A model generated the notes under the pieces. It did no database searches. It was not told where the DNA came from and was given only the letters and a program-made list of their open reading frames with translations. This document shows positions 77 through 35,373 of a stretch of DNA of 35,373 nucleotides, one piece after another; within the stretch, counting starts at the first letter, position 1, and every line of letters starts with the position of its first letter. This DNA comes from a virus. Made by a program: the position numbers and the translations under genes. The stretch covers positions 1 through 35,373 of the IMG/VR virus record IMGVR_UViG_3300013102_000024; one strand, written 5' to 3'.

Positions 77-123
77 TGGAGCGGGTGAAGGGAATCGAAC
101 CCTCGTTATCAGCTTGGGAAGCT
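77..123 (-). tRNA. tRNA-Gly(CCC) 3' fragment at attL
   Basis: The minus strand reads from the anticodon loop (TTCCCAA, anticodon CCC) through the T-arm GGTTCGATTCC to the acceptor end CACCCGCTCCA. The 5' half is absent because phage DNA starts at 124, so this is a non-functional remnant left by integration. The identification rests on resemblance to bacterial glyU-type tRNA-Gly(CCC). Confidence 0.85.
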
Positions 124-180: not shown

Positions 181-224
181 TAGAATCGCGGCTTACAGAG
201 GGTGGTGTTCAATCGTGTTGTTTC
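181..224 (+). promoter_or_regulatory. Integrase leader: possible -10 and repressor operator
   Basis: GTGTTCAATCGTGTTGT at 205-221 is a perfect 17-bp copy of the operator at 7587-7603. It contains two GTGTT units starting 10 bp apart (205, 215). TAGAAT at 181-186 could be a -10 box, but its -35 is poor. The placement suggests the lysogeny regulator that binds the CI/Cro region also controls integrase expression. The operator copy is seen; the regulation is inferred. Confidence 0.55.
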
Positions 225-249
225 ACGCGCTATCACCTTAGATCTGGCC

Positions 250-273
250 GACTGTCACCAGGAACTGTCACCA
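250..273 (+). promoter_or_regulatory. Integrase arm-type site pair, phage side
   Basis: ACTGTCACCA occurs twice, starting at 251 and 264 (13 bp apart), immediately before the integrase ATG at 274. It matches the pair inside the att repeat. Together the two pairs would flank the core in the excised attP, as integrase P and P' arms do. Their position also means bound integrase could repress its own translation start region. Confidence 0.5.
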
Positions 274-1503
274 ATGCTCACGGAAAAGCAGATTCAGGCG
301 CTGAAGCCTCGCGAAAGGGACTACGTCATGTCCGACGGCCGCACCGCCAAAGGCGAAGGGGTGCTCGTTCTCAAAGTCCGCCCTAGCGGGACGAAAGAGT
401 TTTATTTTCAGCGGCATGTCGCTGGTAAAAAGAAGATGGCCAAGCTCGGTACATGGCCTGAGATGAAACTCACGATCGCCCGGGACAAGTGCCGTAACGA
501 AAAGGGGGTACAAGCTTCACCAGGTACATTTCAGGATCTGCTTGATCTGTATGTGAAGAAGCTCGAAACCGAGGAGGCTGCATCGGCTGGCGATGTTAAG
601 TGGTCGCTCAAGCATTACGTCAGTGACCCATTCTCCGACCTGGTCAGCAAACCCGCCTCGCTCATCGGCCCGGTTCAGATTCGCAACATCATTGTCAAAA
701 TGATCGATGCCGGCATTACCACATATTGCAATCGCGTCCGTTCTCAGCTCCATGCAGCATTTCAGGTCGGGCTGGAGCAGGAGTACAACCCACGCAGTTA
801 CCTGGACGTTCAAGTGCGGTTCGGCTTAGTCAGTAACCCGGTGGCAAGTGTGCCGGTCCAGGACGACTGGGAACAACCTGGTGATCGAGCCCTTTCAACT
901 GAGGAACTGGCGACACTTTGGCAGCTACTACCTGAGCATTTGAGTCTGGTGACATCCGAGCTGCTGAAATTTCTCATCGCCTCCGGTGGCCAGCGACCGG
1001 AGCAGGTCCTGGCAACTGAGCGGCGCCACTACCTGAACGATCATTTGATAATCCGAAATAGGAAGGGGAAAAGCGGGGGCAAGGGTATTGAGGGGGAGCG
1101 GTCATTACACGTCGTCCCGTTCAACAAGTTGATGCGCCAAAGCCTGAAGGTGATGGATGAAGTCAGTGAGTCCAGCGCTTATCCCTTTATGGGCAAGGCC
1201 GACGGCAAGTCGCTGCACACGCAGTCGCTGTCCCGAGCAGTGACAAAGCTCTACGGCCGACACACGAAGAAATTCAACGGACCTTTTACACTTCGCGACA
1301 TTCGCCGGACGTGCAAAACGTTGATGGGCGTAGCGGGGCTCGATAAGGAAATGAAGGACCGAATTCAAGGGCATGCGTTCGGCGATGTTGGATCTAAACA
1401 TTATGACCGGTACACCTACTTCAAAGAGAAAAAGTCCGGTCTACAGCGGTGGTCAGTTTGGTTGCAGAAGAACGTGATCACGGCAACGCTGACAAATAAA
1501 TAA
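274..1503 (+). CDS. int: Tyrosine-type site-specific integrase
   Basis: This 409-aa phage integrase should catalyse recombination between attP and the tRNA-Gly site. An N-terminal MLTEKQIQALKPRE...SDG segment resembles the DUF4102/arm-binding domain of P4-like integrases. The C-terminal catalytic domain shows R241 (GGQRPEQV), R344 in LRDIRRT, H367 (QGH) and the likely nucleophile Y377 (SKHYDRY). The usual His of HxLRR is replaced by Arg341. I chose ATG 274, preceded by AGGA at 260-263. The frame is open to a GTG at 202, but that extension would translate the operator and arm sites. The gene sits next to attL and converges on alpA, with 6 bp between the stop codons. Confidence 0.93.
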   Translation: MLTEKQIQALKPRERDYVMSDGRTAKGEGVLVLKVRPSGTKEFYFQRHVAGKKKMAKLGTWPEMKLTIARDKCRNEKGVQASPGTFQDLLDLYVKKLETEEAASAGDVKWSLKHYVSDPFSDLVSKPASLIGPVQIRNIIVKMIDAGITTYCNRVRSQLHAAFQVGLEQEYNPRSYLDVQVRFGLVSNPVASVPVQDDWEQPGDRALSTEELATLWQLLPEHLSLVTSELLKFLIASGGQRPEQVLATERRHYLNDHLIIRNRKGKSGGKGIEGERSLHVVPFNKLMRQSLKVMDEVSESSAYPFMGKADGKSLHTQSLSRAVTKLYGRHTKKFNGPFTLRDIRRTCKTLMGVAGLDKEMKDRIQGHAFGDVGSKHYDRYTYFKEKKSGLQRWSVWLQKNVITATLTNK

Positions 1504-1519
1504 GGCCGCTTACGCGGCC
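1504..1519. terminator. Hairpin between convergent int and alpA
   Basis: GGCCGC-TTAC-GCGGCC is a perfect 6-bp GC stem with a 4-nt loop. It begins just after the int stop and overlaps the alpA stop codon. No strong U tract follows on either strand, so it is a weak intrinsic terminator at best; it could work in both directions. Confidence 0.4.
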
Positions 1520-1713
1520 TCGGTTGGTCTCCATGCTGCAGGGTTTTGCTGCCAGGCGACGATTGCAGACTCTCGCCATCCGACTCGGCCGGGTGAAATC
1601 GAAACCGGGCGTGGGAACCGCCCGCTTTTCATTGCCCGCCACAGCGTTGCGTGTGACAGGGATGTAACGGCGATAACGTCCCGTTCCCTCATAAAACGAT
1701 CCAGCTTACTCAC
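1510..1713 (-). CDS. alpA: AlpA-family transcriptional regulator / excisionase-like
   Basis: A 67-aa winged-helix/MerR-like DNA-binding protein. The pattern SLSHATLWRAMKSGRFPRPV followed by GRVGWRESAIVAW is the AlpA-family signature: a helix-turn-helix, then FPxPV, then a W-x-x-S-x-I-x-x-W helix. The start is GTG at 1713. AlpA-type proteins of P4-like elements act as regulators or excisionases, and the position at the end of the early operon facing the integrase suits a role in excision control. Family assignment is firm; the exact role is inferred. Confidence 0.85.
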   Translation of the reverse strand: MSKLDRFMRERDVIAVTSLSHATLWRAMKSGRFPRPVSISPGRVGWRESAIVAWQQNPAAWRPTEAA

Positions 1714-6871: not shown

Positions 6872-7345
6872 CTAGCTGCCCGGGTTTTCCCGGTGCAGAA
6901 CGATCACTGCAGTGATCTCTTCATGTCTGGCTGCGACGTGCGCACGGTGCGCTGCGAGAATGGCCTGCACCTCGTCGTCCTGGATGACGCCGTCTTGTAG
7001 TGCTTTGGAAATGATGGCGTCGACGAGCCCACGCTTTACTGCCGTATTGATCGAGCGGGCGTACAGGTCGAGGTTGTCGAGTTGTCCAGCCTCAGCAACC
7101 GGGACGAAAACCCCTCCGTACAGGTTGCAGACGAAGTCGGGGAGGTGAGTGGTCCCGGTCTGTGACTCCAGTAGACAGATCTGCTCATCCGTAAGCGGGC
7201 GGCTGCCAGCGTTTTCATAGGCGTGGTTGTCGAACTTTTTCACCGACATTCCCAATCGCGGAGCGGCGCAATCGCGACCACCCGGATACACGCAAATCAC
7301 TGCGCTTACGACCTGCCTGCGGGTTTCTAGAACGGTGCGTTTCAT
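6872..7345 (-). CDS. Phage regulatory CII-like protein
   Basis: A 157-aa protein from ATG 7345 resembling the phage CII/CP76 regulatory family. It has the leading RTVLETRRQVVSAVICVYPG, the GMSVKKFDNHAYENAG stretch and LTDEQICLLESQTGTTHLPDF, which is typical of that family. The C-terminal half is helical. It could alternatively start at ATG 7375, which overlaps the preceding stop as TAATG. It is the second gene of the early operon and probably tunes lysis-lysogeny or early gene expression. Confidence 0.78.
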   Translation of the reverse strand: MKRTVLETRRQVVSAVICVYPGGRDCAAPRLGMSVKKFDNHAYENAGSRPLTDEQICLLESQTGTTHLPDFVCNLYGGVFVPVAEAGQLDNLDLYARSINTAVKRGLVDAIISKALQDGVIQDDEVQAILAAHRAHVAARHEEITAVIVLHRENPGS

Positions 7346-7374
7346 CTTCTGGTTTCTCGCCGGGCCAACTGCCA

Positions 7375-7584
7375 TTAGTTTGAGATCACACCGTCTTTGA
7401 TTCTCAGGAGCACAGCTGCTCGTCGGGCCTCGCCTCGCACGCCCTTCTTGCGACCGTTCAACAAATCGCTGACCAAATTTTTGTTCAAGCCGTGCTCACG
7501 GCAGAAATGCGCAATGGTGATCCCGTTGCGGTCAAGTTCTGCGCGGGCTTGCTCGGCTGTAAGGAGGACGGGCATAGTGTTCAT
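7375..7584 (-). CDS. BcepMu gp16-family DNA-binding protein (Cro-like)
   Basis: A 69-aa helix-turn-helix protein. LTAEQARAELDRNGITIAHF and the recognition part NKNLVSDLLNGRKKGVRGEA followed by LRIKDGVI match the BcepMu gp16 family. It is the first gene of the leftward early operon and stands opposite the CI-like repressor, so a Cro-type role is likely. The ATG at 7584 lies inside the operator repeats and about 23 nt from the predicted transcript start, with no good ribosome site. ATG 7575 is an alternative. Confidence 0.82.
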   Translation of the reverse strand: MNTMPVLLTAEQARAELDRNGITIAHFCREHGLNKNLVSDLLNGRKKGVRGEARRAAVLLRIKDGVISN

Positions 7585-7606
7585 GTGTGTTCAATCGTGT
7601 TGTATG
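7577..7606 (+). promoter_or_regulatory. Early operator: three GTGTT repeats, 10-bp phase
   Basis: GTGTT starts at 7577, 7587 and 7597, exactly one helical turn apart. The block lies at the start of the predicted early transcript and covers the Cro-like start codon. Positions 7587-7603 are repeated at 205-221 upstream of int. P2-type repressors bind directly repeated half-sites, so this is a good candidate for the CI operator. Confidence 0.65.
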
Positions 7607-7613
7607 TGCCATC

Positions 7614-7641
7614 ATTATGCCCAAGAATTTGGCTGTGTAAA
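7614..7641 (-). promoter_or_regulatory. Early (lytic) promoter
   Basis: On the minus strand TTTACA (7641-7636) and CATAAT (7619-7614) are separated by 16 bp, close to the sigma-70 consensus. The start would fall near 7607, right at the edge of the GTGTT operator. It should drive the whole early operon from the Cro-like gene to alpA. Confidence 0.65.
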
Positions 7642-7678: not shown

Positions 7679-8035
7679 TTGGAAAAAACTTTGGGCGAGC
7701 GGCTCCGGGAAGAGCGCGACCGGCTTGGGATCAATCAGAATGATTTCGCTGACATAGGCGGTGTGAAACGTAACTCCCAAGGCAATTACGAAAACGATCG
7801 ACAGAGACCGGACACGGCTTATCTGTTGGCAATTTCGAAGATTGGTGTGGACGTGATGTATGTGCTTTTCGGCCGGCGGGACACGGCTGCGGGAACGCAG
7901 ACCACTGTCGAAAATGAAGTGCTGAACTGCTTTCGTTCGCTGAGTCCTGGTGATCAGATTGTGGTTCACCGGATTGCAACCGGCCTCGCCGAAATGGAGG
8001 CGAAAGAATCGCAGGGTACGCTTCCGCTGGAATGA
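7679..8035 (+). CDS. CI-like phage repressor (HTH XRE)
   Basis: A 118-aa protein with an N-terminal XRE helix-turn-helix (LGERLREERDRLGINQNDFADIGGV ... NYENDRQRPDTAYLLAI) followed by VDVMYVLFGRR, the typical short repressor layout of Pseudomonas P2-like prophages. No peptidase domain is present, so it is not a LexA-type self-cleaving repressor. I chose TTG 7679 because TGGAGAA lies 6 nt upstream; ATG 7649 has no ribosome site. It is divergent from the Cro-like gene and shares its operator region. It probably maintains lysogeny. Confidence 0.85.
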   Translation: MEKTLGERLREERDRLGINQNDFADIGGVKRNSQGNYENDRQRPDTAYLLAISKIGVDVMYVLFGRRDTAAGTQTTVENEVLNCFRSLSPGDQIVVHRIATGLAEMEAKESQGTLPLE

Positions 8036-34880: not shown

Positions 34881-35184
34881 TGACCCATGGGAAACAAGTA
34901 ATTTAGGTATGAGCAGGTGAGGAATCGGCTGCAGCCCGCGTGCGATGCGGTTTTGAGCACTTACTTTGCAGTAGCTTTTTTGAGTAAGGAGGGGAGTAAT
35001 TTTTCTATAACTATATGATTTATATAGATATTTTTTTTGCGATTTCTGACCTAGGTAAAAGGTAATGTTATTTCTAGATATTACTTAAAACTTACCTAAT
35101 CCAATAGCCTAGAAGCCTTGTGTTCTCTGGCTTTCAGAGCGGTCTGAGGAAAACTTACCAAAAATACTGGTTTCCCATGGGTCA
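34881..35184. repeat. AT-rich segment bounded by inverted repeats
   Basis: TGACCCATGGGAAAC at 34881-34895 is the exact reverse complement of 35170-35184. Imperfect complementarity continues inward to about 24 bp. The interior (especially 34975-35100) is very AT-rich and holds several GGTAA/TTACC motifs and a dyad TAGGTAA...TTACCTA (about 35051-35099). It contains no good gene. Possible roles are a replication or partition site, Xis/IHF-bound attachment arm, or relic mobile element. No flanking target duplication is seen. Confidence 0.6.
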
Positions 35185-35250: not shown

Positions 35251-35373
35251 ACACGCAAACTGTCACCGGAACTGTCACCAAACACGCTGAGGCCCAAACT
35301 GGCACGTCTGGAGCCCTTGAAAATAGTGGAGCGGGTGAAGGGAATCGAACCCTCGTTATCAGCTTGGGAAGCT
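35251..35373. repeat. attR: attR: 123-bp direct repeat, right copy
   Basis: Identical to 1-123. The tRNA portion (35327-35373) should continue into the 5' half of tRNA-Gly(CCC) in host DNA beyond the window. The arm-type pair is at 35258-35280. The distance between the copies gives a prophage unit of 35,250 bp. Confidence 0.85.
35327..35373 (-). tRNA. tRNA-Gly(CCC), 3' part, continuing outside the window
   Basis: Same sequence as 77-123 but at the side where host DNA should follow. Because the phage carries the 3' end of the gene, integration restores a full tRNA here. Only the part from the anticodon loop to CCA is visible. Confidence 0.8.

Follow-up and report, generated by a model that had tools for sequence, protein, structure and literature searches.

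The window, meaning the whole 35,373-bp stretch of phage DNA analysed here, begins and ends with the same 123 bases (1-123 and 35251-35373). This exact terminal repeat identifies the record as a circular phage genome whose attP is intact, rather than an integrated prophage. The tail sheath, portal, scaffold and terminase genes are of P2 type, and integrases related to that of the phage, with the same att core, occur in Pseudomonas genomes. A 15-bp inverted repeat, TGACCCATGGGAAAC, is present at 34881 and 35170, in the non-coding right end of the window. The features relevant to this work are:

1-76, no strand: left attP arm, with two arm-type sites ACTGTCACC at 9-17 and 21-29
77-123, minus strand: attP core, corresponding by sequence to an interrupted 3' part of tRNA-Gly
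205-221, plus strand: 17-mer of two GTGTT units with a 10-bp period, inside attP, between the core and the int-side arm sites
218-236, plus strand: TTGTTTCA-N5-TATCACC, TGTYTCA-type direct repeats identified by alignment with the integrase family
251-272, plus strand: two int-side arm-type sites ACTGTCACC
274-1503, plus strand: tyrosine integrase (int; phrog_1, Arm-DNA-bind_3)
1510-1713, minus strand: AlpA-family protein (PF05930), probable excisionase
6872-7375, minus strand: CII-like / YmfL-family regulator
7375-7584, minus strand: 69-aa BcepMu gp16-family HTH protein (phrog_925, TIGR04111), first gene of the early operon, in the Cro position
7577-7606, plus strand: tandem array GTGTTCATGT / GTGTTCAATC / GTGTTGTATG, three units with a 10-bp period, holding the second copy of the 17-mer
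7614-7641, minus strand: predicted early promoter, TTTACA-16-CATAAT, just upstream of the array
7621-7632, no strand: palindrome CCAAGAATTTGG between the -35 and -10 elements of the early promoter, probable CI operator
7682-8035, plus strand: CI-like repressor (HTH_3)

The integration module and the early operon

The pairs of ACTGTCACC sites on both sides of the tRNA-Gly core, at 9-29 and 251-272, indicate that attP is intact, with both a core and arm-type sites. The core reads as the 3' part of tRNA-Gly, the full gene being absent, and ARAGORN detected no tRNA in the window. The same 47-bp core is found in other records of the phage database, and is common to the att regions of relatives; near-matches in this database were limited to the tRNA core. 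Although the open int frame begins at GTG 202, ATG 274 is likely to be the true start codon, because the longer reading would contain the arm sites. The 17-mer at 205-221 therefore lies 52 bp upstream of the ATG that probably starts int, and no sigma-70-type promoter was found around it, in a search of 60-330. Its last bases overlap the first of the TGTYTCA-type repeats, which occur at the same attP position across the whole integrase family in the alignment. The repeats at 218-236 are likely candidates for AlpA or recombination directionality factor (RDF) sites.

At the other locus, the array abuts and overlaps the start of the 69-aa HTH gene. The encoded protein belongs to the BcepMu gp16 family, scoring 77.5 bits against TIGR04111 (curated cut-off 34). 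Its structure model is all-helical, with four helices and zero strands (pLDDT 79), and its best PDB hits, of HipB, 434 Cro and P22 C2 type, are all weak (E 0.09 or worse). The fold is predicted to be XRE-like.

A 17-bp sequence shared by attP and the early operator region

The sequence GTGTTCAATCGTGTTGT occurs exactly, and on the same strand, at 205-221 and 7587-7603, the latter corresponding to units two and three of the array. The 17 bp constitute the maximal exact match, and no further copies with three or fewer mismatches were found in the 35,373 bp. The earlier note reported this identity and judged it very unlikely by chance, and both statements hold. The longest common substring was only 4-11 bp in 4,640 pairs, each combining one of 58 arms from the attP of other integrase relatives with one of 80 operators belonging to the gp16-like regulator family; in 5,000 dinucleotide shuffles of the arm found in the window, matches reached 13 bp at most. 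Hence a 17-bp match between an attP arm and an operator region is far beyond chance, with the caveats that the final 3-4 bases of the attP copy (TTGT) are a motif common in the integrase family, and that the whole window contains one other repeat as long, the 19-bp leader repeat at 2437 and 2645. This latter repeat (2437-2455, 2645-2663, and partly at 2998) comprises an AGGAGAG ribosome-binding site and an ATG, read on the minus strand, and represents a repeated translation-start leader ahead of neighbouring early genes.

Within attP, the 17-mer is 100% invariant in ten relatives with integrases at least 93% identical (nine distinct arms), among which 37 of the 149 arm columns vary, none of them inside the 17-mer (P 0.0056). 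In L012, with an integrase of 83% identity, attP instead contains GTGTTTGAGCGTGTTGT, in which both GTGTT units are kept and the spacer is lost. Both the GTGTT pair and the 17-mer are absent from the attP of integrases less than 80% identical, even those accompanied by a related regulator, and in relatives with integrases below 82% identity an operator resembled the attP of its own phage no more closely than the attP of another (6.4 vs 6.2 bp). Similarly, a clean attP copy was not found in L011 and L017, which have nearly the same regulator alongside other integrases. The attP 17-mer is nevertheless kept in L104, where the regulator is 53% identical and the array is of the GTGTG type, and in L123 (Pseudomonas sp. 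TNT3), a genome without a match to the gp16-like regulator; the arms of these two differ from one another at ~5% of positions, such that the probability of 17 bases remaining unchanged by chance is ~0.4, as estimated from the arms. In L123, the same int, attP and AlpA module is found on a different kind of element, with adjoining ORFs that include ATPase-like sequences.

Any coupling of the early regulator to attP, if real, therefore appears from these comparisons to be confined to one lineage. A more general recurrence of operator copies in attP was also considered, as GTGTT matches before the L025 and L080 integrases looked promising. This was rejected because the repeats in dusA-type attP are independent of the regulator, and those of the L025 type (L025, L329 and L330) do not track the operator. 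The dusA-type attP (L148, L155, L080 and L248-L320) contain 10-11 bp GTGTT/CGTTTT repeats before int, whatever the regulator type, which are possibly arm-type or RDF sites.

Candidate binding proteins and the possible role of the attP copy

The shared sequence had been described as the immunity operator, yet 7587-7603 falls within an array that is probably the operator of the gp16-like protein. This assignment is made because GTGTT pairs cluster at the start of the gp16-like gene (72 of the 80 occurrences of GTGTT-N5-GTGTT in 1.09 Mb, with two occurrences of the reversed pattern in total), because the recognition segment of the protein, NKNLVSDLLNGR, hardly varies among phages with GTGTT-type arrays, and because this segment differs in L104, where NPSTVYAVLNGQ accompanies the GTGTG-type array. 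CI, by comparison, most likely acts through the palindrome at 7621-7632, apart from the shared site. Across 57 non-redundant phages, palindrome similarity tracked CI (partial Mantel r 0.754, p 0.0005), and was not related to the gp16-like protein (r -0.21). Array similarity had weak partial correlations with both proteins (0.32 for CI and 0.16 for the gp16-like protein), the former being as expected from linkage, and the Mantel test alone cannot separate the two as regulators of the array. The palindrome lies outside the 17-mer, and no copy of it is present in attP. CI was rejected as the most likely binder of the 17-mer, since it covaries with the palindrome.

We favour the reading, at a probability of roughly 0.45, that the 17-mer provides two binding units for the gp16-family early regulator, which would act both at its own operon and at attP. 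The three units at 7577-7606, just downstream of the early promoter, would enable the gp16-like protein to repress its own operon. The two units in attP, with the crossover core on one side and the int-side arm sites on the other, would be bound by the same protein, positioning it beside or over the TGTYTCA repeats, the probable binding sites of the AlpA excisionase. Bound there, it may skew Int-mediated recombination, or prevent it, after the lytic programme has begun. The sequence data show the identity of the two copies, the structure of the array, the location in attP and the conservation among close relatives, and from there we infer both which protein binds and its effect on excision. 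The site more probably functions in recombination or excision than in the control of int transcription, because it is located between the core and the arm sites, and a sigma-70-type promoter was not found in 60-330. The earlier description of a site in front of the integrase gene is correct as to its position 5' of int, but only in as much as it forms part of attP.

Another reading, in line with the earlier note, is that CI, the Cro-position protein, or both, repress int transcription from 205-221. The site is 5' of int, the array of the early regulator is copied there, and int promoters near att that are repressed by the RDF are known in KplE1 and P4 (PMC7498355). Nevertheless, the probable CI operator is the palindrome, which was not copied, and with the promoter search of 60-330 also negative, this explanation is improbable. 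Slightly less probable again is that AlpA binds both copies, as an excisionase at attP and a regulator at the early promoter. Nearly all intact attP modules recovered for this integrase family encode AlpA, and AlpA-family RDFs that also act as regulators are known. However, the array operator is conserved in L011, L016 and L017, which have other integrases and in which an AlpA gene was not detected; the attP copy is unchanged in L004, despite its AlpA being 73% identical; and the motif is missing from most integrase relatives that have AlpA. AlpA is consequently unlikely to be the common binder, as the operators persist without it being detectable.

A different type of explanation is that the attP 17-mer is an element of the integrase module, belonging to the architecture of accessory Int, IHF or AlpA binding, with its likeness to the operator being historical or coincidental, and no regulator shared at present. 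This would account for the TTGT part being family-wide attP sequence, for the persistence of the 17-mer with a swapped regulator in L104 and with none in L123, for the lack of enrichment of same-phage pairs in other lineages, and for similar GTGTT repeats in dusA-type attP regardless of regulator. Against this, the match is far above the maximum of 11 bp in the mismatched comparisons, and integrases less than 80% identical lack the GTGTT pair, meaning it is not needed for Int generally. We regard this explanation as possible, if on the doubtful side. The earlier suggestion that one regulator controls both sites is likewise inferred: in L104 and L123 the attP copy fails to follow the regulator, and other phages with this regulator have no such copy in their attP. 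The proposed link between early control and integration survives in a modified form, as the shared site is real and the link plausible, although the site is not the CI operator and control of int transcription is the less likely outcome.

Relationship to known phage switches

The arrangement suggests that the lysis/lysogeny switch also touches the integration of DNA, as in 186 and P2. In phage 186, Apl is encoded by the first gene of the early operon, and binds direct repeats 10-11 bp apart at both pR-pL and att (PMC7498355). The gp16-like gene is likewise first in its operon, in the Cro position and opposite the repressor, relative to the predicted promoter, and direct repeats one helical turn apart are present at both the switch and attP. 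Repeats 10-11 bp apart, as in Apl and Cox systems, are found at the switch, and the same repeats recur in attP between the core and arm sites, albeit as two units, and in the record's lineage only. Unlike 186, the regulator is of the gp16/XRE-like family, one two-unit cluster was detected in attP, AlpA is encoded by a gene of its own, and regulator and int are ~6 kb apart.

P2 Cox is a winged-helix protein. The predicted combination of early regulation and attP binding resembles its dual logic, and the phage itself has P2-type genes, but the gp16-like model has four helices and zero strands, and neither a winged-helix fold nor a sequence relationship to Cox was evident from the model and its PDB matches. 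As with P4 Vis and other AlpA-family RDFs, an AlpA homologue is encoded beside int, although on present evidence the copied operator is not that of AlpA. By sequence, the regulator belongs to the BcepMu gp16 family (TIGR04111), the record of which gives no function, and a limited literature search found no attP role for this family.

It is a tentative proposal that this XRE-like regulator works at attP as an additional and independent directionality or gating factor, alongside a dedicated AlpA excisionase, with the coupling recently acquired in one Pseudomonas phage lineage through the gain of operator units in attP. If true, the Apl/Cox logic of one early protein serving both switch and attP would have arisen independently, from a fold that looks unrelated. 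The close relatives, which have the regulator, lack it or carry a swapped one, would then represent a natural series in which the evolution of such coupling can be tested. It would also provide a predicted function for a widespread, uncharacterised phage protein family. Many of 398 Pseudomonas genomes encode relatives of the gp16-like regulator at ~50% identity (E near 1e-14).
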